Shown here: piece by piece, positions 603 through 20,075 of the stretch
How the letters are laid out: each line of letters opens with the position of its first letter
Numbering within the stretch: the stretch's first letter is position 1
From: a bacterium
GTDB taxonomy: Bacteria; Vulcanimicrobiota; Xenobia; Xenobiales; JADMJV01
Direction: 5' to 3'
Length of the DNA: 64,000 nucleotides
NCBI GenBank assembly: GCA_030149525.1
Contig: JASBRJ010000143.1
Coordinates: 1 to 64,000 of the forward strand
The notes under the pieces: generated by a model
Databases searched by the model: none
The model's input: the letters and a program-made list of their open reading frames with translations, nothing else
Told to the model about the DNA's origin: nothing
Position numbers and translations under genes: made by a program

Positions 603-2243
603 TCATTCCCCTTCTTTTTCGACTGCGGCCGCGATATTCTCCCAAGCTCTCATCTGAGCAACTCTCCGGTTTTTCTCCAGCAGTTCTTTGACCCGGGAAA
701 CGAACTGTTCAAGAGCATCCACCCTGGTGGAAACGTGGAACACACTTTGATTTTCAAGATCGATTGAGGCTAGATTTACCAAAGGCGGCCCATTTACGTC
801 AGCCCAATCGACCAGGCTTAAGATCCCAGTCTTCTTATTGAAATCCCAACTGAGGCGAAAGAGGCTATCGATGACGCCTTTCCACTCTCGCGAGCCCGGG
901 TGTTTGTTGACGTAGGCCAGCAGGCTATCAAGCTTAGTTTGCTTCGTCCGGGTCTGCAGCTGGGCATCGAGATTTGCAAGGTCTTTGCGAATAGTCGCCT
1001 CTCGCTGCTCTAGCTCTTGTAGTTTGGCGCTGATACTGGCTCCCTGCTCTCCGACTCCGGCCATAATGAACTCAAGGAGATTGTCTTTTGATGCCTCTAT
1101 CGAGGTGAGAAGCGCTGTCAGCTCAGACCGTCTTAAGTCCATCTCTTCGGAGCCGAGCGAGTGATTCTCCAGACATCTCGTTTCATGAACATCGGAGACT
1201 ATCTGCAAGCCTTCCTTTCGCACAAGCTCGTCCAGGATGTCTGCCCTAGTGGCCTTCTGGCGGGTACAGGTCCCCTTCGCCCATCCTGGGCACTGGTAGT
1301 AAGGGTATTTGTAGCCCTTCCCTCCCCCAAAAGCTCCGACGACATCTGAGCCGCAAGCACTGCATGTCATCGTTCCTTTGGCGAGAAGGTAGGGATATAC
1401 GGCTCTTTTGTTTCGCTTCTTGTGGCGTCTCAGGATGCTCTGAACACTCTCCCACAACTCCTCGGAGACGAGAGCGTGACAGCTTCCCGTTACAAGCTCC
1501 TCTGGTTCGCGTCGGGTGCGTCTCCCTTTCGCGGACAAGGACGTTATTCCGTAGCGGAGGACACCTTTGTAGGTTGGATTTCCGAGCCGTTTCAGAAGAG
1601 TCTGGCTAGCCCATTTCTTTCCAGTTGCCGCGTGAATCCAGTCGACCAGCTGTTTCGACGAGAGCCCTGCAGCGTATTTTTCAAATACTTCCCTTACGAT
1701 TGCGGCTTCCTCGGCATGGGGAACAAGAATAGACTTTCCGTCCTCGCCTTCACCCCTCCGATATCCGAAGGGCGGCTTCCCTCCGGTCCATCGGCCGGCT
1801 CGTGTGGCAGCTCGTTGACCCTTGCGGGTCTCCTGGGCTAGGTTGAGGGAGTAGAACTCGGCTATGACCTCCATAAATCCCTCGACCATTCGCTCGTAGG
1901 GGCTCTCTCCCAACTTCTCAGTGAGACTGAAGATCTTGACGCCGTGGCGACGGAGTAAAGCCTTGTACATCACTGTCGTTTCGCGGTCTCTGCCGAACCG
2001 GTCTAGCTTGTGCAATACAAGCGTGTCGAACTTTCGGTCCTTGGCCGCCTTCACCATAGCCTGAAATTCGTCGGCTTGGTCTATGAGAGCGGACCTCGTC
2101 TCTGGCAAGAGGAATCTGTGAGTTATCTCCCACCCCTCCTTCTGGCAATGTCTCTCCATTTCAGACACCTGAGCGTCCAAGCTCAAGCTGTCTTGTAGCT
2201 TGGATGAATACCGAGCAAAGAGCGCGGCTCGTGTTCTTTTCAT
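603..2243 (-). CDS. Large serine recombinase with zinc ribbon
   Basis: A 546-residue site-specific recombinase of the large serine type, expected to cut and rejoin DNA through a 5'-phosphoserine link. The N-terminal resolvase domain has the ARYSSKLQ motif with catalytic Ser13 and Arg11, and the later LDRFGRD helix. A recombinase domain follows, then a Cys4 zinc ribbon (CSACG ... YYQCPGWAKGTC) near residues 290-330 and a coiled-coil-like C-terminal region. AGGAGGA precedes the ATG. It sits near the left of the window and reads outward, so it could be the integrase of a second element. A 12-bp inverted repeat lies just upstream of its ribosome binding site. Confidence 0.92.
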   Translation of the reverse strand: MKRTRAALFARYSSKLQDSLSLDAQVSEMERHCQKEGWEITHRFLLPETRSALIDQADEFQAMVKAAKDRKFDTLVLHKLDRFGRDRETTVMYKALLRRHGVKIFSLTEKLGESPYERMVEGFMEVIAEFYSLNLAQETRKGQRAATRAGRWTGGKPPFGYRRGEGEDGKSILVPHAEEAAIVREVFEKYAAGLSSKQLVDWIHAATGKKWASQTLLKRLGNPTYKGVLRYGITSLSAKGRRTRREPEELVTGSCHALVSEELWESVQSILRRHKKRNKRAVYPYLLAKGTMTCSACGSDVVGAFGGGKGYKYPYYQCPGWAKGTCTRQKATRADILDELVRKEGLQIVSDVHETRCLENHSLGSEEMDLRRSELTALLTSIEASKDNLLEFIMAGVGEQGASISAKLQELEQREATIRKDLANLDAQLQTRTKQTKLDSLLAYVNKHPGSREWKGVIDSLFRLSWDFNKKTGILSLVDWADVNGPPLVNLASIDLENQSVFHVSTRVDALEQFVSRVKELLEKNRRVAQMRAWENIAAAVEKEGE

Positions 2244-2314: not shown

Positions 2315-2659
2315 TTATACGCGAGCAGCAAGTAGGAATTGACCGGCGTATTCATCGGCTTCATCCTCTTGTGCTTCGGAGAGAGTGAGTCCGGCTTCGA
2401 GGTGGGACCGGAACAACCGGAACCTGCCCAGCAAAGACGCCAGGATGAAGGCCCTCTCTTCCTCGGAGAGCGACAGATTGACACCGACAACGCCTGTCCT
2501 TAGAGATAAGAATCCTTCACCCATTGAGGAGACAGGCAGCCCGCAGACCTTTAGTCCGAATCCCTCGATGATATTGACGAGGTGGGCGGCAGGGTTACCA
2601 CGACGGCTGCGGAGCAGCATCTCCGCGTCTCGCTTGCAAGTGATCTGGAGAGTCGTCAT
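2315..2659 (-). CDS. ImmA/IrrE-like protein lacking the HExxH zinc site
   Basis: A 114-residue protein with the ImmA/IrrE layout: a helical N-terminus, a strand region (GFLSLRTGVVGVNLSLSEEE), the helix that normally carries HExxH, and the distal EADEYAGQFLL helix (compare ExxANxFAAxLLMP). In active family members the helix reads F-T-L-A-H-E-L-G-H; here it reads FILASLLGRF (71-80), so both histidines and the glutamate are replaced by Ser75, Leu76 and Arg79. Active relatives cleave ImmR-type repressors of mobile elements. This one should not be a zinc protease and may be a binding or regulatory relic. Its ATG overlaps the stop of the upstream gene (ATGA). Confidence 0.6.
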   Translation of the reverse strand: MTTLQITCKRDAEMLLRSRRGNPAAHLVNIIEGFGLKVCGLPVSSMGEGFLSLRTGVVGVNLSLSEEERAFILASLLGRFRLFRSHLEAGLTLSEAQEDEADEYAGQFLLAARV

Positions 2660-2853
2660 TGTTTCGAGCCTCCAAAACTGTCACAGAGAGAGTTGAACCA
2701 CTTGACGATTTCGGCGGTGAAGTCTTTGACACTGGGGAAACGCGAGCGCTTCTCGCCAAGCTTCGCGTACTCTTCCTCTGTCAATGGCATCTGCAAGCAA
2801 AGAATCTTCTGCAACTCGCCATTGGCCTCGATAATGCAGGTCACTGTGATCAT
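2656..2853 (-). CDS. Small protein, unknown function
   Basis: A 65-residue protein (MITVTCIIEANGELQKILCLQMPLT...) with an N-terminal beta-prone part and a C-terminal helix (DFTAEIVKWFNSLC). No domain is recognised. GGGGAGG precedes the ATG and the gene overlaps the ImmA-like gene by four bases (ATGA), which supports translation and a shared transcript. It is the first gene of the minus-strand operon that starts beside the first structured RNA block and ends with the serine recombinase. Confidence 0.6.
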   Translation of the reverse strand: MITVTCIIEANGELQKILCLQMPLTEEEYAKLGEKRSRFPSVKDFTAEIVKWFNSLCDSFGGSKQ

Positions 2854-2947
2854 CGCGCACCTCCCCTCAATGCCCGCAGGCGAAGGTTCTTGGCCGCTCT
2901 GGCGTTACAAAGAGCAAAGCCTTTTGCAATTCTGCATGCTCGGCGAG

Positions 2948-3316
2948 TACGGTAGAATGGGAAGTAGATTGACCTCGGTCGGTCTGTTGTTTGGGTCCCA
3001 GCTTGCCTTCTACGGGCAGGGTGGGAGTGATTCTCAGGCAACAAGATACCTGAGGGGCGGTCATGTGTGTACTTTGACGGGTATGGCATGACTTAGCCTC
3101 TCTTTCTTTTCAGTTTTGACCGTTCTGGGTCCATTAGAAGAAAGGAAGCATAAGCCAGTGATGCAGGGGTTTGAGGCGCTTAAGGGAAGCCTATTCCTAC
3201 ACTGTGGCCTCGTTTTCGATCTTACCAGGGACTGAAACGGGGCCGCTTTTTTTGCGGTTCATTGGGACTTCTTGGAGCGGCGGAAAGGTCCTCTCTAGAC
3301 AACTTCAGGTCCGTTG
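2948..3316 (+). ncRNA. Candidate structured RNA, copy 1 of 2
   Basis: This gene-free block matches 9919-10277. It opens with a 43-nt segment (2948-2990) identical to 9919-9961. Paired elements on the plus strand: A 3004-3008/3014-3018; B 3033-3038/3049-3054; C 3059-3065/3087-3093; D 3102-3108/3138-3144; E 3206-3215/3235-3244; F 3243-3246/3254-3257. Against copy 2, stems C and E show compensatory double changes, and wobble pairs in A, C and E are valid only if the plus strand is the RNA. F overlaps E by two bases, so they may alternate. Two AGGTCC repeats lie near the 3' end. TAGAAT at 2953-2958 could be a -10 box, but no good -35 is seen. Confidence 0.55.
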
Positions 3317-3416
3317 GCAGTAGCCAAGCCTTCCAAGGGAAGGATGGCCACTATACTCTTGACCCTTTCATCCACCCCCAGGAGGACGACCGAAGACAGG
3401 CCGCAAATCGATAGGG

Positions 3417-4070
3417 ATGACATCAAGAGGCTACCTATCAATTCCTGAAGACGAACGAGATACGCTTCAAAATCTCTTCAATATGGACGATGAGGCATTT
3501 CAGCGAGTAAAGGACGTACTGAAAGAGCCTCACTTAATCCACGAGATTGACGATCCAGAAGAGTACTTTAGGCTTGGCGAGATAGAAGCAATGTTGACCG
3601 GGATGTTTGAGTCACTGTCACGACTGGATCTGGACCCTGAGGATTTCATCGATCTATTGATGAAAACGTGTGAAGTTAAGAACATAAAAATCGGAGATGG
3701 AAGAACGCGCCTGATGGCGTTGCTCTCTCTCGATAACTCATACACGTTGCCCGTGCGGGCTAAAGGCCTCCGGCTCGACAGGCCAAACACTCTCTGCTCT
3801 GCGAATATTTTTACAGACATTCGCCCTGTCTTTTCTGAAGATAAATCAAAGCTTTTGGCCACGACCCCGATTCACTCCTTAGTGTTACGTGTGCATAGGA
3901 GACGCGAACATGGTAGTCTAGGATTGGCTGAACACTATATTTCACTGGTTCGTGAGGATATCGAGGCTCTGAGGGACGTTTGTGAAAAGGCTTTAAGGAA
4001 AGAGGCAACTCTTGGTGCTTTTATAACTAAGAGTGGCACTTCGTGGATCGTAGACGAGGAGGTTGAATGA
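3417..4070 (+). CDS. Unknown protein, first gene of three-gene cassette
   Basis: A 217-residue acidic, soluble protein. The N-terminal third is helical and rich in Asp/Glu (LSIPEDERDTLQNLFNMDDEAFQRVKDVL); the C-terminal half alternates strands and a long helix (HSLVLRVHRRREHG... REDIEALRDVCEKALRKEATLGAFI). No catalytic motif is recognised. Its TGA overlaps the ATG of the next gene, and that gene's GAGGAGG lies inside this one, so the pair is translationally coupled. The gene starts 100 nt after the first structured RNA block and reads the same way. It could be an immunity, sensor or DNA-binding subunit; function unknown. Confidence 0.75.
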   Translation: MTSRGYLSIPEDERDTLQNLFNMDDEAFQRVKDVLKEPHLIHEIDDPEEYFRLGEIEAMLTGMFESLSRLDLDPEDFIDLLMKTCEVKNIKIGDGRTRLMALLSLDNSYTLPVRAKGLRLDRPNTLCSANIFTDIRPVFSEDKSKLLATTPIHSLVLRVHRRREHGSLGLAEHYISLVREDIEALRDVCEKALRKEATLGAFITKSGTSWIVDEEVE

Positions 4071-4942
4071 GCACTTTATCGGTTAAGTCTAAGAAAATTG
4101 GTCGACATCAGGTCTTCGCCTACTGTGATGGGCGAAGGGCTCAGAGCTATCACTATGCTCCACCTGCGCAATGGGAGTTCGAACAAAAGTGTAGACCAGT
4201 AAATCAACCACAGGAAAGCTTTAGGACAAAGAAAACGCTCAAAGAGAGAAACGCACAGTGGATCCTAACAATTGAGAAACAGCTTGAACAAAGCCCGGGG
4301 GCCGCGATACCAGAACTGATTAAGCTACTAGGGCTGAAAAAAAATCAGGAATTGGTAGCTTATGCCGCTCAGCGATTGAGAGTCGTCCCCCTAAGTACAG
4401 AGCAACGTTCCGAAGCGTGGTATATCCTTCACCGCTGGATAGAAAAATGGTCGGATGATCCATCCTGCCAACACTATTTGAATATCTCTTTGCCCTCTGC
4501 GATTCCACTAGGGCGCTCTGCTGCAGTGGATTTTGTCCGGGGTTCAATTCAGACCGCTGAGATAGATGTTGCCGAGTCGTTGGCTTTGGGTTTGTTTACG
4601 GGCTCCCCCAAAGCTGGAAGTCTATTAGGGATTCTTCCTGAGTCGGAAGTTACAACGCTGTTCCTAAGTATATTGAACCGACTTGCTTCCCGGTCTAGAC
4701 CGATGCCTAACTTGGTATGGGCAATAGGACCTACAACAGGCAAACGCAGTCTAAGAGACGCTGTTTCGATGCTGGAGAATATCTTCACTAGACCGAAAGG
4801 CTTTGAGGACGCCGCAGCTATCCGAGCCGGGTGCATGCTTACTAGAGCCTGGGGCCCAGAAACAGTGAAACTGATAAAGGATATCTTCGGTGACGATACT
4901 GGGAGTCGTTATCTTGCGTATTTGGTTCGCCACGGCCGGTGA
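4067..4942 (+). CDS. Unknown helical protein, second gene of cassette
   Basis: A 291-residue, mostly helical protein without signal peptide or clear membrane segment. The basic N-terminus (KSKKIGRHQVFAYCDGRRAQ) is followed by helical blocks that might form a repeat-type scaffold (IPELIKLLGLKKNQELVAYAAQRL; VTTLFLSILNRLASR; DAVSMLENIF). No nucleotide-binding or nuclease motif was found. The start overlaps the upstream stop (ATGA) and the stop overlaps the GTG of the next gene (GTGA). Such tight packing suggests the three products work together. Confidence 0.75.
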   Translation: MSTLSVKSKKIGRHQVFAYCDGRRAQSYHYAPPAQWEFEQKCRPVNQPQESFRTKKTLKERNAQWILTIEKQLEQSPGAAIPELIKLLGLKKNQELVAYAAQRLRVVPLSTEQRSEAWYILHRWIEKWSDDPSCQHYLNISLPSAIPLGRSAAVDFVRGSIQTAEIDVAESLALGLFTGSPKAGSLLGILPESEVTTLFLSILNRLASRSRPMPNLVWAIGPTTGKRSLRDAVSMLENIFTRPKGFEDAAAIRAGCMLTRAWGPETVKLIKDIFGDDTGSRYLAYLVRHGR

Positions 4943-5550
4943 CAACGATACGGGTCGATGAAGACGAGACCGGCCCAGTGCGTACTGGCGATGCAGTATT
5001 TTGCTGTACCAGTGGAGGGGCTTATCCTATCCATGCTGGAATCCATGTTGGTGAGGAGATCGAGAGCATTACCTACGGCTTCAAGCCAGTAAGTGTGTGC
5101 GAAATGTCCGGGCCACCAAACGGTGCGACGGAAGGCCATTGGAACGACATTGGCTCCAACTATTTCGTCGATGTAGTCGGAGTTAGGGACGAAGACACGG
5201 AACCAATGGACCTAAAAATGGTCGCCGTCGTAGCCAATACTGTAAGAAACCATCACTCCGGTTTAACTTGCGGCTGGGCTAAGAAAATGGCCCTCCACAA
5301 AAGTATCAAGGTTGGTGACGGTCTTTCATTATTCCAGTACGGCACCTGTTCTCATTTTGTTGAGTATTGTTATGAGGCAGCCGACCTTGATATCGTAAAC
5401 CAAGCTTTCACATTTGATCCCAATGATAGGGACCGGATATACCCCTCACTTCAGATTTACATTTTTAGTACTGGACGATATGGTGAAGAGATCCCTTGGT
5501 GCGATAATTTTAAAAGCTATCCAGAGTGCGTTGAGTTTTCCAAAGAATAG
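4939..5550 (+). CDS. LRAT-like (permuted NlpC/P60 fold) protein
   Basis: A 203-residue protein with the two signatures of the LRAT/permuted papain fold: an early histidine strand (PIHAGIHVG, His32, after GDAVF) and a later nucleophile helix (GTCSHFVEYCYEAADL, Cys137-Ser-His-Phe-Val, compare NCEHFV of LRAT proteins). Relatives are acyltransferases, lipases or peptidases that form a thioester at the cysteine. There is no signal peptide, so action in the cytoplasm or on membranes from inside is likely. The GTG start overlaps the upstream stop. As the last gene of the cassette it is a plausible effector; the substrate cannot be predicted. Confidence 0.65.
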   Translation: MTTIRVDEDETGPVRTGDAVFCCTSGGAYPIHAGIHVGEEIESITYGFKPVSVCEMSGPPNGATEGHWNDIGSNYFVDVVGVRDEDTEPMDLKMVAVVANTVRNHHSGLTCGWAKKMALHKSIKVGDGLSLFQYGTCSHFVEYCYEAADLDIVNQAFTFDPNDRDRIYPSLQIYIFSTGRYGEEIPWCDNFKSYPECVEFSKE

Positions 5551-8757: not shown

Positions 8758-9183
8758 CTAGTTATTTGTATCTGTCACCAACTCATTCCACTCTTCCAGT
8801 AAGGCCTCCAGTTCATCGAGACAAGCCCCCATAAGGCCATTCGAGAGATTGAGACTTACTAGGTCTAAGTCGCGCCCAGGTGAGCCGGTCTCGAGAAGGC
8901 GCATTACCTTGAAGACCTCCCTCATCGCGTCATCAATGGCGTGAAGGCGAAGAGTGCAGGGCTTCTCAAGGGCGATCATCACGCGGTTGAAGTCGTCACA
9001 CGAAAGATCGGGAGAAACGATATCGTGAACTCTTTCGTGGTTTTTAACGGCTGAAGAGAAACCCTCGAATCGATGGGGAAACCTCTGGACATCTTCCAGG
9101 TAGACCTCCTCCGGCGGTGGAGCCTGGTCATTCAGGATGTATCGGGCAGCAGTCACGGCTTGAGGTTCGTATCTAATACTCAT
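8758..9183 (-). CDS. Unknown helical protein
   Basis: A 141-residue acidic, helical protein (…DFNRVMIALEKPCTLRLHAIDDAMREVFKVMRLLE…LDELEALLEEWNELV). No domain, signal peptide or membrane segment is recognised. Its ATG overlaps the stop of the ImmA-like gene upstream (ATGA), and a strong terminator follows, so the two genes form a closed operon. Confidence 0.65.
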   Translation of the reverse strand: MSIRYEPQAVTAARYILNDQAPPPEEVYLEDVQRFPHRFEGFSSAVKNHERVHDIVSPDLSCDDFNRVMIALEKPCTLRLHAIDDAMREVFKVMRLLETGSPGRDLDLVSLNLSNGLMGACLDELEALLEEWNELVTDTNN

Positions 9184-9842
9184 CTCGAAAACCCCCTAAC
9201 AATATCGGCAAGGGTTGGTAGGGATGAACCTTGGTCCTGATGGTTCTGGCAGAACGCGGTCCCTGGGGTTCTGAATCCGCGACATTGCTTCCCGTCCGAC
9301 CTGTACCCTTTGCAGAGGGAGTTTCTGGCGTCACGCCGTCTGCCGTAGCCCTCGCCCTCCTCATTCTTTTTCTCAAACGCTGGACCGTTCCGAGTTATCG
9401 CCTCATTTGTACGCGAGTTGTCGGGATACAAGGAAAAGGACGGTTGAATGCTGCCTGCAGTGGAAGCGAGGTAGTTTGTAGCCCAGGCCTCAGCCTTGGC
9501 TCTCCACCTCTCTTCACAGTACAGTTCGGTGGTCACTTCGGAGAGAAATGCTCCCCGGGTGAAGTGCATACCGAGGGCTACTGTAAGGCACCAACGGAAG
9601 TTGGGCCAGGCTTGATTGCGAGCAACATCGATTGCTGGCTCTTCAGGGGTGTAGAGGTATCCCGTTCTCCATTCTTCGAGATTTGAGCGGGAGCAGTAGA
9701 GCGTGATGCCCTCGTTCTTGATGATAACTAGAAGCCTGTGGAGTTGCTGAAAGGCGAGTTTCGGGATTCGCTTTTCATCAAGACCACTCTCTGAGACTAA
9801 CTCGCTGAAGAGCGGATATGGATCTCGTTGAAACTCTCTCAT
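9180..9842 (-). CDS. ImmA/IrrE-like protein without zinc site, with C-terminal Cys/His motif
   Basis: A 220-residue protein. Residues ~30-130 follow the ImmA/IrrE pattern (GYLYTPEEPAIDVARN, then a helix, then KAEAWATNYLA with Glu118), but the helix that should read AHELGHH reads FRWCLTVALGMHF. Val88, Ala89 and Met92 replace His, Glu and His, so metal binding is lost. The C-terminus holds CKGYRSDGKQC...GTAFCQNH (about 177-202), a Cys3His pattern seen in small phage zinc modules. GGGAGG precedes the ATG. The gene starts beside the second structured RNA block, as the operon at 2315-2853 does beside the first. Confidence 0.55.
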   Translation of the reverse strand: MREFQRDPYPLFSELVSESGLDEKRIPKLAFQQLHRLLVIIKNEGITLYCSRSNLEEWRTGYLYTPEEPAIDVARNQAWPNFRWCLTVALGMHFTRGAFLSEVTTELYCEERWRAKAEAWATNYLASTAGSIQPSFSLYPDNSRTNEAITRNGPAFEKKNEEGEGYGRRRDARNSLCKGYRSDGKQCRGFRTPGTAFCQNHQDQGSSLPTLADIVRGFSR

Positions 9843-9918
9843 TCCACACCTCCCGCGCTCTGCGGCTGCTTGCCGTTACAATCAGCAAAGCCTTTTACAA
9901 TTCGGTCGGCTCGGCGGT

Positions 9919-10277
9919 TACGGTAGAATGGGAAGTAGATTGACCTCGGTCGGTCTGTTGTCTGTGCTCCATCTTGCCCTCTGCGGGCAGGGTGGAAGAA
10001 TGTCTCAGGCAATGCAAAGCCTGAGGGGTCGGACGTGGTGTTCATTGGTAGTGGGCTCACGTTCGTACCTCTCTTTCTATTCAGTTGATAATCCACTCGC
10101 AGACGAGGATAGATAGAAAGAGGGCAACGAAGGGGAACAGCCTCGCACAGGGGAAACTGTCTCTTACTGCTGGCCTCACTCTGTCCGTCCAAAGATAGGA
10201 GTGGGGCCACTTATTAGGTGGTCTTAGAAGTTTCTTTGGGCGAAGAAAAGGTCCTTTTGACATTCAAAGGTCCGAGC
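9919..10277 (+). ncRNA. Candidate structured RNA, copy 2 of 2
   Basis: Counterpart of 2948-3316. Stems: A 9975-9979/9985-9989; B 10004-10010/10019-10025; C 10031-10037/10058-10064; D 10071-10078/10115-10122; E 10172-10181/10199-10208; F 10207-10210/10218-10221. Stem E reads GGCCTCACTC/GAGTGGGGCC here and GGCCTCGTTT/AAACGGGGCC in copy 1: three compensatory pairs plus a kept U-G. Stem C differs at two compensatory pairs and two wobbles. Two AGGTCC repeats recur near the 3' end. No plus-strand gene follows, so the RNA need not be an mRNA leader. Confidence 0.55.
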
Positions 10278-10319
10278 AGCAACTCCACTTATTCGGAAAT
10301 TCCAGACAACTGGCAGAAA

Positions 10320-10348
10320 AGAAAAAAGCTGCACCAAAACGGCGCAGC
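10320..10348 (-). terminator. Terminator of the tape-measure operon
   Basis: GCTGCACC at 10328-10335 pairs with GGCGCAGC at 10341-10348, with one mismatch, around AAAAC. On the minus strand the stem is followed by TTTTTTC. It lies about 95 nt beyond the stop at 10444. The remaining gene-free bases (10278-10319 and 10349-10443) show nothing notable. Confidence 0.65.
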
Positions 10349-10443
10349 CAACAGCCTCGGAACTGTTACCTGATTCTAGCACATTTCACGAGCCCAGCGC
10401 ATTGAAGCGACCTAACGGACTTAAGAGCCTCACCGGTCGGCAG

Positions 10444-10786: not shown

Positions 10787-13700
10787 CTACCTCCCTGGTA
10801 GTCTCGGGGCTTGTCGTTCGAAAACCCCAGCATCGAACAAGGTGTTCTCTGTGCTACGGGTCATAGATTGAGCGAAATTGTGAGGGGCGCGGGCGGCCGC
10901 CTTGTTAGCCTGTTGCATAACGGTGACGAGGCCTTGAATTGCCGCAATGAGCGCCTTTGTGTTGGAAGCGGTCAGGGCAAGGTTTGTGCTGTCGGCTTGA
11001 GAGAGCGCCCCTGGTTGGGCCTGGTTTGTCGCTCCTGCTCCTGGCGCGGCCTGCCTGGTCTTACCATCGGGGATAGTCGGAGGATTGGAGGTTTTTGCTT
11101 TTTCTCGTAGCTGAGCAAGCTTCGCCTGGTTCAATTGAACTTGTCGGCTGATATCGGCAGGGGTCTTCCCATCGGCGTCCTTCTTGCGTTGCGATGGCAG
11201 GTTCGACTTACCAAAGCCTTCGCCAAACGAATTGATGTTGTCGATGCCGGACAAGCCCCCAAAGTCGCTGTCGATAGAGAACCCGGCAGCCTTCCGGCGC
11301 TCTTTGTTCTGGTCTTCCAAAAGCTCCTTTTGCTTCTCCAGCTCGGCTGTTTGTGTCCTGAGTTTTTCTATATCGGTGTCGATGATGGCTTGTGACTGCT
11401 TACGTGCCTCTCTCTGAGCGCGTTGGAGTTCGAGAGCGGCGGCCTGGTCATTCAAAACCTTCTGCTCGGTGGATGCTCCCACGTTGGCTTGAGCTTGTTT
11501 GAGTTTAATGATCTCCTGTTCAGCCTTCAGGCGGTCCTGCACTGCTTGGAGTTGCGCTTCGCCCTCTTCCTTGGCTATCTGAGCCAGTTCGGCGCTCGTG
11601 TCGGCTCCTAGTTCAGCCAGTTCCTGAAGTTGGCGCCTTCGCTCCTCGAAGACATCGGCTTGAGCCTGCTTTTCTGAGTCGAGAACCGAGGCTCTCTGTT
11701 CTGCAGTTTTGACCGCTAATTCGGCTTCGCGCTTCTGGCGGGCTTCACCGGCCTTCTTTGCCTTCTCTTCGTAGTCTCGGTTTTTCTCGGCAACCTCTCG
11801 ATTCAGCTTATCTCTCTCTGCTGCTACCCTCTCATTGAGTTGCCGCTCCTGTTCTGCCGCTTGCTTGTTAATCTGATCGGCGTTCGCGGGGTCGGCCTGA
11901 ATCTCAGCGGCTTTTTCCCGTTGAATCCGAAGCCTTTCAAGTGCGGCCTCTTCTTTCAAAATGGCTTGTAATTTCTCATTTTGAGCGGCCGTTTCAGCTT
12001 TGATGAGACCGAGAACATCTTCCCCTTTCTCTAACCGGCGTTGAAGGGCGGTCAGTTCGGGGGAGTCTTTAGCAAGTTCGGCCCGTTGTTGGAGTGCGGC
12101 CTTCTGGAGGTCCAACTCTCTTTGCTGGAGAGCGCGGGTTCGCTGAAGGCGCTTCTCTTGGATCGCCTGGATGGAATCCGAGAGATCTTCTTCGGCTTTA
12201 GCCTTCTGGTCGGCGTTTGCTTTGTACTGTGCTAGGAGCCGGGCTTGTACACTCCTGGCCTTTTCAGCCGTTACCTCTTCGGCGCTCAGCCGTTTCTTCA
12301 GGTTGGCTAACTCGTCGTTAAGGACAGACTGCCGCAGGCTACGCAAAGCCCCGATGGCTTCCTTTTGACCGCCACTATCAAGACGGGAAAAGATACTCTC
12401 GAAAGCCTGTAGTTGCTTCTTGGCGCTGTCAAAATTGCCCGCTTCAACCTCGTTTTTGTACTCCCGGAAATCATTGGACGCTTGCCGATAACGGGCCTGA
12501 GTCGCCTTCTCTGCTGCCTGCTCAGCTTCCACTTCCGCTTTCTTGCGTTGATCGACAGTCACACGGAGGCGGCGGGCCTGGTCAAGCCTTCTCTGCGCTG
12601 CCTGAATGGCTTCTCTGTCACCAGAAGACTCAGCAGAAGAAAGTGCGTCCTGAGCCTCCAGGACAGCCCTGGTGGCCTTGTTGCGGGCTTGTGCCAGGTC
12701 CTCGGTAGCGTCAACCTCCGCCTTAATCTGAGTAATAGTCTCCTTGCGAAGTTCGAGGATCTCTTTGTCCTGCTGGATCGCCCTTGTTTGGGTCTGAATG
12801 AGAGCGGCTTGAGCTTTATCGGCGTCTTCTAGAGAGTCAACCCATTCCGAAGAGGCCTCCGCTGTTTTGTAGGCAGCCAGGGCGAGAGCACCGAGGACAA
12901 CGGCAGACCCACCCGCACCGGTCGCAAAAGACTTCAAGCGCGGCAGAACGTTGGTGAGTTTGCCGGACAGGTTACCGAAAGCACCGGCGGTTTTTTCCAC
13001 CCCTGCGGCTCCCACTGAACCACCAGAACCGACAAAGTTGAACAGGCTCGCCACCTTGCCTAACCCTACGGCGAGAGCCCCCAGCGGCGCGGCGGTCAAA
13101 GCTAGACCGGCAGTGAACTGGATGAACCCTTCGGGCAGGTTATTGAGAGCCTTCGCGACCGGAAGGAGTCCCTTCGCGGCCAAGTCCTTCAGGTCGTTAA
13201 CTGAATCCCCGACTTCCCTTTTGAACTTACCAACCTCATCGGCTAGCTCGCTTTGGGCATCCCTGGCGCGGTTGGCAATATTGGCATAGCGGTCATTCTC
13301 GTCTAGGTATCTTTGCAAGGCCCGTTGCGCGGCTCTCTGTTGGTCTACGGTGTCACCCAGGATTTTGCCGGTGGAATCTAGTTCAGCCCCGTACTGGCGA
13401 AGGGCCTCCCCACCGATCCCGTATTGAGCCCTAAGCTCCTCGAAAACCCCGATGTCAAAGTTCCCCGATTCGAGAGGGGCCAGTGCCTCGCCGAACGTGT
13501 CGGCGGCATCAGAGAGGTCTTTCCCGGCGTCCAGGGCGGCTTTGGTAATTCGGCCAAGGTTCGCTTCACTAGCGGCAGCCAGGGCATCTAGCCGTTTCAC
13601 AGCCTGCCCGATATCGTCCTCCTCGACCAACTCCCCATACGCGTCTTTCAGGTCACGGGCAGCGTCAACAAACTTCTGAGCATCGGCAGGATTAGAGAAG

Positions 13701-14227
13701 GCCTGCTTGATCGAGCGTTCCATATCGCGAGATGTTGCGGCGGTCTCGGTAAAGGTCGAACTGAGTTCGCTGAGCTTGCCAAGGAGGCTCTCGGCGCTTT
13801 GAAGGGCTGCTTGCAGGCTGATAGCTTTGGCGGCGTCACCGGCACCTCTGAGCCCGTCCTCCACATCCTTGAGTTCGCTCTTCAGTTGGGCCACTTCGGC
13901 GGAACTGTCGCCTAACTGGCTAAGCTCACGGCGCAGGTCGCGGAACTCCTTGATGAGGCGGTCCACGGCGTCGTCGGCACCGTCAAAGCCGCCTTCTAGG
14001 TCGTCTCTTGTGCGAGAGGCTTGGTCACCTAAGTTTTTGAGCGAGGCTTCTCCCTTGGCGGAGGCCTTTGAAACCGAATCCCCAAACTTCTCGGCCCTGG
14101 TTCCGGCATCGGTGAAACTCCCGGCGATGTTCTTGCCGCTCTTCTTTGCCTGTTGTTCGGCCTGTCGGAAGCCTCTTTCGAGATCATCCATTTTGGCGGC
14201 GATGATGATATCTAGTCTGTTAGCCAT
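10787..14227 (-). CDS. Phage tail tape-measure-like protein
   Basis: A 1,146-residue protein with the composition and layout of tail tape-measure proteins: long Ala/Gln/Glu/Lys-rich coiled coils, two hydrophobic stretches (GFIQFTAGLALTAAPLGALAVGLGKVA near 370-395 and SAVVLGALALAAYKTA near 440-455), and an opening (MANRLDIIIAAKMDDLERGFRQAEQQAKKSGKNIAGSF) typical of this family. Such proteins set tail length and pass into the host envelope during DNA entry. AAGGAAGGC lies upstream of the ATG. No other tail, head or packaging gene was recognised in the element. Confidence 0.75.
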   Translation of the reverse strand: MANRLDIIIAAKMDDLERGFRQAEQQAKKSGKNIAGSFTDAGTRAEKFGDSVSKASAKGEASLKNLGDQASRTRDDLEGGFDGADDAVDRLIKEFRDLRRELSQLGDSSAEVAQLKSELKDVEDGLRGAGDAAKAISLQAALQSAESLLGKLSELSSTFTETAATSRDMERSIKQAFSNPADAQKFVDAARDLKDAYGELVEEDDIGQAVKRLDALAAASEANLGRITKAALDAGKDLSDAADTFGEALAPLESGNFDIGVFEELRAQYGIGGEALRQYGAELDSTGKILGDTVDQQRAAQRALQRYLDENDRYANIANRARDAQSELADEVGKFKREVGDSVNDLKDLAAKGLLPVAKALNNLPEGFIQFTAGLALTAAPLGALAVGLGKVASLFNFVGSGGSVGAAGVEKTAGAFGNLSGKLTNVLPRLKSFATGAGGSAVVLGALALAAYKTAEASSEWVDSLEDADKAQAALIQTQTRAIQQDKEILELRKETITQIKAEVDATEDLAQARNKATRAVLEAQDALSSAESSGDREAIQAAQRRLDQARRLRVTVDQRKKAEVEAEQAAEKATQARYRQASNDFREYKNEVEAGNFDSAKKQLQAFESIFSRLDSGGQKEAIGALRSLRQSVLNDELANLKKRLSAEEVTAEKARSVQARLLAQYKANADQKAKAEEDLSDSIQAIQEKRLQRTRALQQRELDLQKAALQQRAELAKDSPELTALQRRLEKGEDVLGLIKAETAAQNEKLQAILKEEAALERLRIQREKAAEIQADPANADQINKQAAEQERQLNERVAAERDKLNREVAEKNRDYEEKAKKAGEARQKREAELAVKTAEQRASVLDSEKQAQADVFEERRRQLQELAELGADTSAELAQIAKEEGEAQLQAVQDRLKAEQEIIKLKQAQANVGASTEQKVLNDQAAALELQRAQREARKQSQAIIDTDIEKLRTQTAELEKQKELLEDQNKERRKAAGFSIDSDFGGLSGIDNINSFGEGFGKSNLPSQRKKDADGKTPADISRQVQLNQAKLAQLREKAKTSNPPTIPDGKTRQAAPGAGATNQAQPGALSQADSTNLALTASNTKALIAAIQGLVTVMQQANKAAARAPHNFAQSMTRSTENTLFDAGVFERQAPRLPGR

Positions 14228-19999: not shown

Positions 20000-20075
20000 T
20001 GGCAGGGACAACAGGACTCGAACCTGCGACCTACGGTTTTGGAGACCGTTGCTCTACCAGCTGAGCTATATCCCT
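20000..20075 (-). tRNA. tRNA-Trp (CCA anticodon)
   Basis: A 76-nt cloverleaf on the minus strand with encoded 3' CCA. The acceptor AGGGATA pairs with TGTCCCT (one U-G), the anticodon stem ACGGT/ACCGT encloses CTCCAAA with anticodon CCA, and the T arm carries TTCGAGT. Its 3' end faces the integrase, so the element probably uses it as attachment site, and the gene stays intact. Confidence 0.97.

Follow-up and report, generated by a model that had tools for sequence, protein, structure and literature searches.

The window analyzed here (64,000 nt, positions 1 to 64,000 of contig JASBRJ010000143.1) holds two copies, A and B, of what is, judged from sequence comparison, a previously undescribed structured RNA of approximately 270 to 320 nt that constitutes a new family. 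We assign a probability of about one-half to the reading that it is a stand-alone noncoding RNA, encoded on the plus strand, which is carried as cargo by satellite-like integrative elements and would act in trans. The original prediction had described a recurring unit made up of a structured RNA block and, reading away from it on the minus strand, an operon for an ImmA-like protein, with one perhaps regulating the other. The back-to-back arrangement of both blocks was confirmed, and the RNA itself proved real, with four copies in the genome rather than two, three of which have a divergently oriented minus-strand operon next to them; the ImmA-like protein, however, did not hold up as its partner. 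The features of the window are compiled in Table 1.

Table 1. Position of the RNA copies and of neighboring features in the window
Feature	Position	Strand	Remarks
Large serine recombinase	603..2243	-	Paired with ImmA-like gene; pair also on contig C18
ImmA/Peptidase_M78-like protein without HExxH	2315..2659	-	Adjoins copy A; no constant partner
65-aa protein, no recognized family	2656..2853	-	First gene in operon divergent from copy A
Divergent leader and promoter region, copy A	2892..2950		Common to A and B (blastn)
RNA copy A	2951..3258	+	Likeness to copy B runs on to ~3330; 3' end uncertain
A/B-identical 5' stretch, copy A	2951..2990	+	Not in C53 and C10 copies
Core helices P2 (CTCAGG/CCTGAG) and P3 (GGGC-GGTCATG/CATGACT..GCCT)	3033..3098	+	Compensatory changes, four copies
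Helix P7 (GGCCTCGTTTT/GAAACGGGGCC) then TTTTTTT, copy A	3206..3253	+	Terminator-like
141-aa protein	8758..9183	-	Sole relative in 148-genome sample adjoins C10 RNA copy
220-aa protein, C-terminal Cys/His (zinc-type) motif	9180..9842	-	Adjoins copy B
Divergent leader and promoter region, copy B	9864..9921		Common to A and B (blastn)
RNA copy B	9922..10240	+	Likeness to copy A runs on to ~10275
A/B-identical 5' stretch, copy B	9922..9961	+
Helix P7, copy B	10172..10208	+
Terminator of minus-strand tape-measure operon	10318..10350	-	Faces copy B

Copies A and B share 79% identity over 229 nt (2892-3115 versus 9864-10086; blastn, E = 6e-46), a match that covers the minus-strand leaders (2902-2947 and 9873-9918) for which a likeness had been predicted. 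From positions 2951 and 9922 on, the two run for approximately 40 nt without a mismatch; past the main match their homology is weaker, with pairing retained, up to approximately 3330 and 10275. The 5' stretch of copy A features a TAGAAT -10-like box, followed by a hairpin (AGATTGAC/GTCGGTCT) at approximately 2966-2985. With a covariance model built from A and B (R1), contigs C53 and C10 of this genome were each found to carry one more copy, and a second model built from all four copies (R2) returned the same four and no fifth, the matches of both models having E values of 1e-63 or better. All four copies come from one assembly of 398 contigs (97% complete, 4.5% contaminated); chromosomal genes are present on the same contig for C56 and C10, whereas the C53 contig is short and could be of foreign origin.

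The core common to all four copies begins with TTGCC and ends past a GGGGCC-GC-U-run, with identities of 76% between A and C53, 73% between A and C10, 88% between C53 and C10, and 55% between A and B. It is preceded by a 5' part of either the A/B type or a different C53/C10 type. Since the cores of A and B are only 55% alike although their 5' part is in common, the RNA is a mosaic. The GCAAA/TTTGC stem that had been thought to pair better on the minus strand is present, but it comprises only 5 bp, with a substitution in copy B that yields a G.U pair on that strand; located in the 5' flank of A and B, which C53 and C10 do not have in common with them, it carries no weight as evidence.

Two-sided changes were found in 14 of 65 tested pairs across the four copies, compared with 5.4 ± 1.8 in shuffles and 2 to 4 in slid controls, where it should be considered that a structure derived from these same sequences is favored over its slid versions, the shuffle control being independent of that. 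Overall, 88.8% of the cells were paired, and none of 500 shuffles matched either value, with the caveat that related sequences, too, can beat shuffles. This excess of two-sided changes over expectation, together with its absence from all 500 shuffles, argues for a real structured RNA. Folding z-scores were -2.8 for 2950-3345 and -5.6 for 9920-10285. The P3 stem of copy B is fully paired after a one-base shift read by hand, and helix P5, which pairs badly as written due to a shifted alignment, was found by hand to pair in A, C53, and C10. The U-run that follows P7 forms the loop region of another hairpin, P8, which is small and conserved. In the window at 3206-3262, P7 and the small hairpin GGCCRC-U7-GYGGUY both use the GGCC strand and could compete. 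A separate two-state switch via UGUUGUUUG/CAGGCAACA, considered for A and B, was dropped because this pairing is impossible in C53 and C10.

Transcription most likely proceeds from the plus strand. Specifically, the U.G pairs and the A-to-G changes in 3' strands fit the plus strand only, the A-U/G.U exchanges fit it as well, the consensus fold of A and B has an energy of -100.9 on the plus strand versus -68.1 on the minus strand, and the absolute folding energy is better on the plus strand in all four copies; the z-scores do not favor this strand in C53 and C10, so that they do not decide the strand there by themselves. No sigma-70 promoter and no clear terminator were called, the latter also applying to the P7/TTTTTTT element of copy A in a consensus scan. 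Protein coding on either strand was considered, as the minus-strand frames stay open, and judged unlikely because the differences lack a codon-position bias.

A search of Rfam 15, of which the GOLLD and ROOL models are part, gave no family at the gathering threshold or at relaxed thresholds, chance matches lying far below threshold; neither the GOLLD nor the ROOL family model was matched. Neither blastn nor R1 nor R2 detected a relative among 148 further genomes of the phylum; a match in genome G136 (17.7 bits, 125 nt) is weak, contains a large deletion relative to the model, and was set aside. No match was obtained by blastn in phage and plasmid records, and none of 54 viral contigs that encode related primase-helicases contained the RNA. 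In a separate search of viral contigs, the two divergent proteins had no relatives. Scanning IMG/VR with exact patterns (a 25-mer, a 5'-end 16-mer, CCTCTCTTTCTNTTCAGTT, and CTGAGGGGCGGTCATG) yielded either no match or chance matches. An 18-base pattern run against the collection-wide genome contigs gave six chance palindromes; as this pattern covered the A/B-specific 5' hairpin alone, core-only copies may exist in other genomes.

GOLLD and ROOL, which occur in phages and prophages, are large orphan RNAs with a defined structure and no assigned function, often encoded near tRNA genes, and many members of GOLLD are longer than 800 nt (PMC12286853). The RNA described here resembles them as a structured orphan RNA in phage-like elements but is much shorter. 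In the PLE satellite, the most abundant transcript is noncoding and may regulate PLE genes, like the P4 RNA (PMC7567579). The PLE IIR transcript and P4-type RNAs are similar to ours in being noncoding RNAs of satellite-type elements, ours being a predicted transcript; they differ by antisense matches to their own gene leaders, whereas the search for antisense targets in the present elements gave matches of 13 to 14 nt only and none above 14 nt. Being alike in kind to these RNAs but without an Rfam match, the RNA is called a new family.

Up to the tRNA-Trp gene at position 20000, the window encodes a tyrosine integrase, a repressor, an excisionase, an O-like replication protein, and a tape-measure protein, and similar elements with primase-helicases adjoin tRNA-Met on C10 and C273. 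They share with PICI and P4-like satellites an integrase at a tRNA gene, a repressor, an excisionase, a primase-helicase or O-like protein, and the lack of a recognized capsid gene, but differ in carrying a tape-measure gene (10787-14227 in the window, L026:12573-16085 on C10, and L027:4128-7517 on C273), their putative satellite nature being read from gene content. No capsid, portal, or terminase family was matched among the scanned element proteins, the tape measure being the sole recognized virion gene. The tape measure of C273 is 90% identical to that of the window, yet C273 carries other genes in place of the RNA, which marks the site as one of variable cargo. A convergent minus-strand tape-measure operon lies opposite the RNA in B and C10, whereas on C53 the RNA is codirectional with the genes that follow it and with the tape measure; hence, neither position nor orientation of the RNA is fixed.

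The neighborhoods of the copies have further features of their own. Copy A is followed by three overlapping plus-strand genes of unrecognized family (window 3417-5550). Directly upstream of the C53 RNA (L025:160-310), AAGTTsAACTT palindromes occur at four sites with a spacing of approximately 70 nt, possibly an operator array or extra RNA hairpins, and several TGTCCA/TGGACA repeats lie just downstream of the C10 RNA (L026:11080-11215). A Schlafen AlbA_2 protein adjoining the C53 copy (L025:3954-5078) and, next to the C10 copy, a PADLOC HEC-09-like protein with an NYN domain (L026:8272-9225) are possible defense cargo; in the scan of the RNA neighbors for defense families, the NYN type in C10 was the only match.

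The four copies have diverged but keep the same fold, while their neighborhood varies and their orientation is not fixed; this is most simply accounted for by a self-contained RNA acting in trans. Such an RNA would be transcribed, would be neither an mRNA leader nor bound by ImmA-like proteins, and would serve the element as a regulatory or interference RNA directed at its host, at a helper phage, or at a rival element, with the ImmA-like genes belonging to the recombination or lysogeny side of the elements.

It is conceivable, though unlikely, that the RNA instead forms a unit with the protein encoded at 8758-9183 in the divergent operon, be it as a ribonucleoprotein, a toxin-antitoxin pair, or a regulator. 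The 141-residue protein and its C10 relative (34% identity over 116 aa, E = 1e-12; E = 3.6e-15 in another search) are the two occurrences of this family in the 148 phylum genomes, both times divergent from a copy of the RNA, and a Cys/His motif protein accompanies the family at both loci. This makes it the best candidate for a protein partner of the RNA, but two cases are few, and the family is absent from the divergent operon of copy A and from the C53 contig. We consider it rather unlikely that the RNA represents a new class of satellite RNA which, with or without this protein, serves to protect its element or to interfere with a rival element or a helper phage, in elements that have a tape measure as their sole recognized virion gene.

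A role as a cis-acting leader, i.e., a riboswitch or attenuator of the next plus-strand gene, appears quite doubtful. P7 and the U-run are followed by such a gene at a distance of approximately 160 nt in A (3417-4070) and 90 nt in C53 (L025:761-1390), where a leader role is possible; the two downstream proteins, however, show no mutual match at an E value of 1e-3, and in B and C10 the RNA runs toward minus-strand genes only, their convergent operon precluding a plus-strand leader role there. Improbable, too, is a structured DNA site, single or double stranded, for replication origin, recombination, or packaging: the block always resides in mobile elements and is flanked by palindrome arrays on C53, but its pairing is preserved in an RNA-like manner, through G.U pairs that work on one strand, and the sister element on C273 does without it.

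As for the ImmA-like proteins, both minus-strand neighbors had been described as having the ImmA fold pattern without a zinc site. For the product of 2315-2659 the ImmA likeness is sound: it matches Peptidase_M78/ImmA in Pfam (E = 4.4e-4; 20.5 bits versus a gathering cutoff of 22), scores 23.5 bits with a local ImmA hidden Markov model (HMM) against a maximum of 6.8 in 4000 shuffles, and is 34% identical over 119 aa (E = 2e-10) to an intact ImmA with HELGH from the same genome. It reads ASLLGR at the place aligned with HExxH, so peptidase activity as in the ImmA/IrrE anti-repressor proteases, whose family it shares, is not expected. Like those, it lies beside a recombinase, and the gene belongs with the latter, since contig C18 carries an ImmA with HELGH next to a serine recombinase (47% identical) and no RNA; the end of another reading frame occupies part of the 300 bp that precede the C18 ImmA. 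For the product of 9180-9842 the likeness is marginal: it has no Pfam M78 match, its 6.2 bits with the ImmA HMM fall within the shuffles, and its top alignment to a local active ImmA (27.3 bits, E = 0.11) barely differs from the top shuffle (26.2). In that alignment, RWLLAHELGHH of the active protein corresponds to RWCLTVALGMH, with V, A, and M replacing the HExxH residues. On C273, an ImmA with HELGH (L027:10526-11139) precedes a gene for the same Cys/His motif that ends 9180-9842 (E = 8e-8); the latter could be regarded as one fused version of these two genes that has lost the zinc site. This gene order and the resemblance make its ImmA status plausible, the N-terminal part possibly being a degenerate ImmA domain. 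Single-sequence AlphaFold2 models of both proteins (pLDDT of 39 and 65) were too poor to use, and Foldseek with the model of pLDDT 65 gave no significant match.

The other copies differ. No ImmA-like gene was detected near the C10 copy (PF06114 at E <= 0.01 across the whole genome; BLAST), an RNA without such a gene being what the original prediction had itself named as refuting the link; the C10 protein of unrecognized family L026:9933-10844 could contain a very divergent ImmA domain in its N-terminal half. None was found on the 5.4-kb C53 contig, where approximately 400 bp upstream of the RNA are visible. Although a certain or possible ImmA-like gene adjoins two of the four RNA copies, it is very improbable that RNA and ImmA-like protein regulate one another, given the C10 RNA, the intact-zinc-site ImmA genes on C18 and C273 that lack the RNA, the pairing of the gene with a recombinase in A and C18, and the marginal likeness of 9180-9842.

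To our knowledge, phage satellites have yielded few structured RNAs so far, and no function has been assigned to any of the large orphan RNAs from phages. The result corrects a tempting link between the RNA and ImmA, and the four diverged copies in one genome, together with a sister element without the RNA, provide a natural comparison for the role of the RNA.
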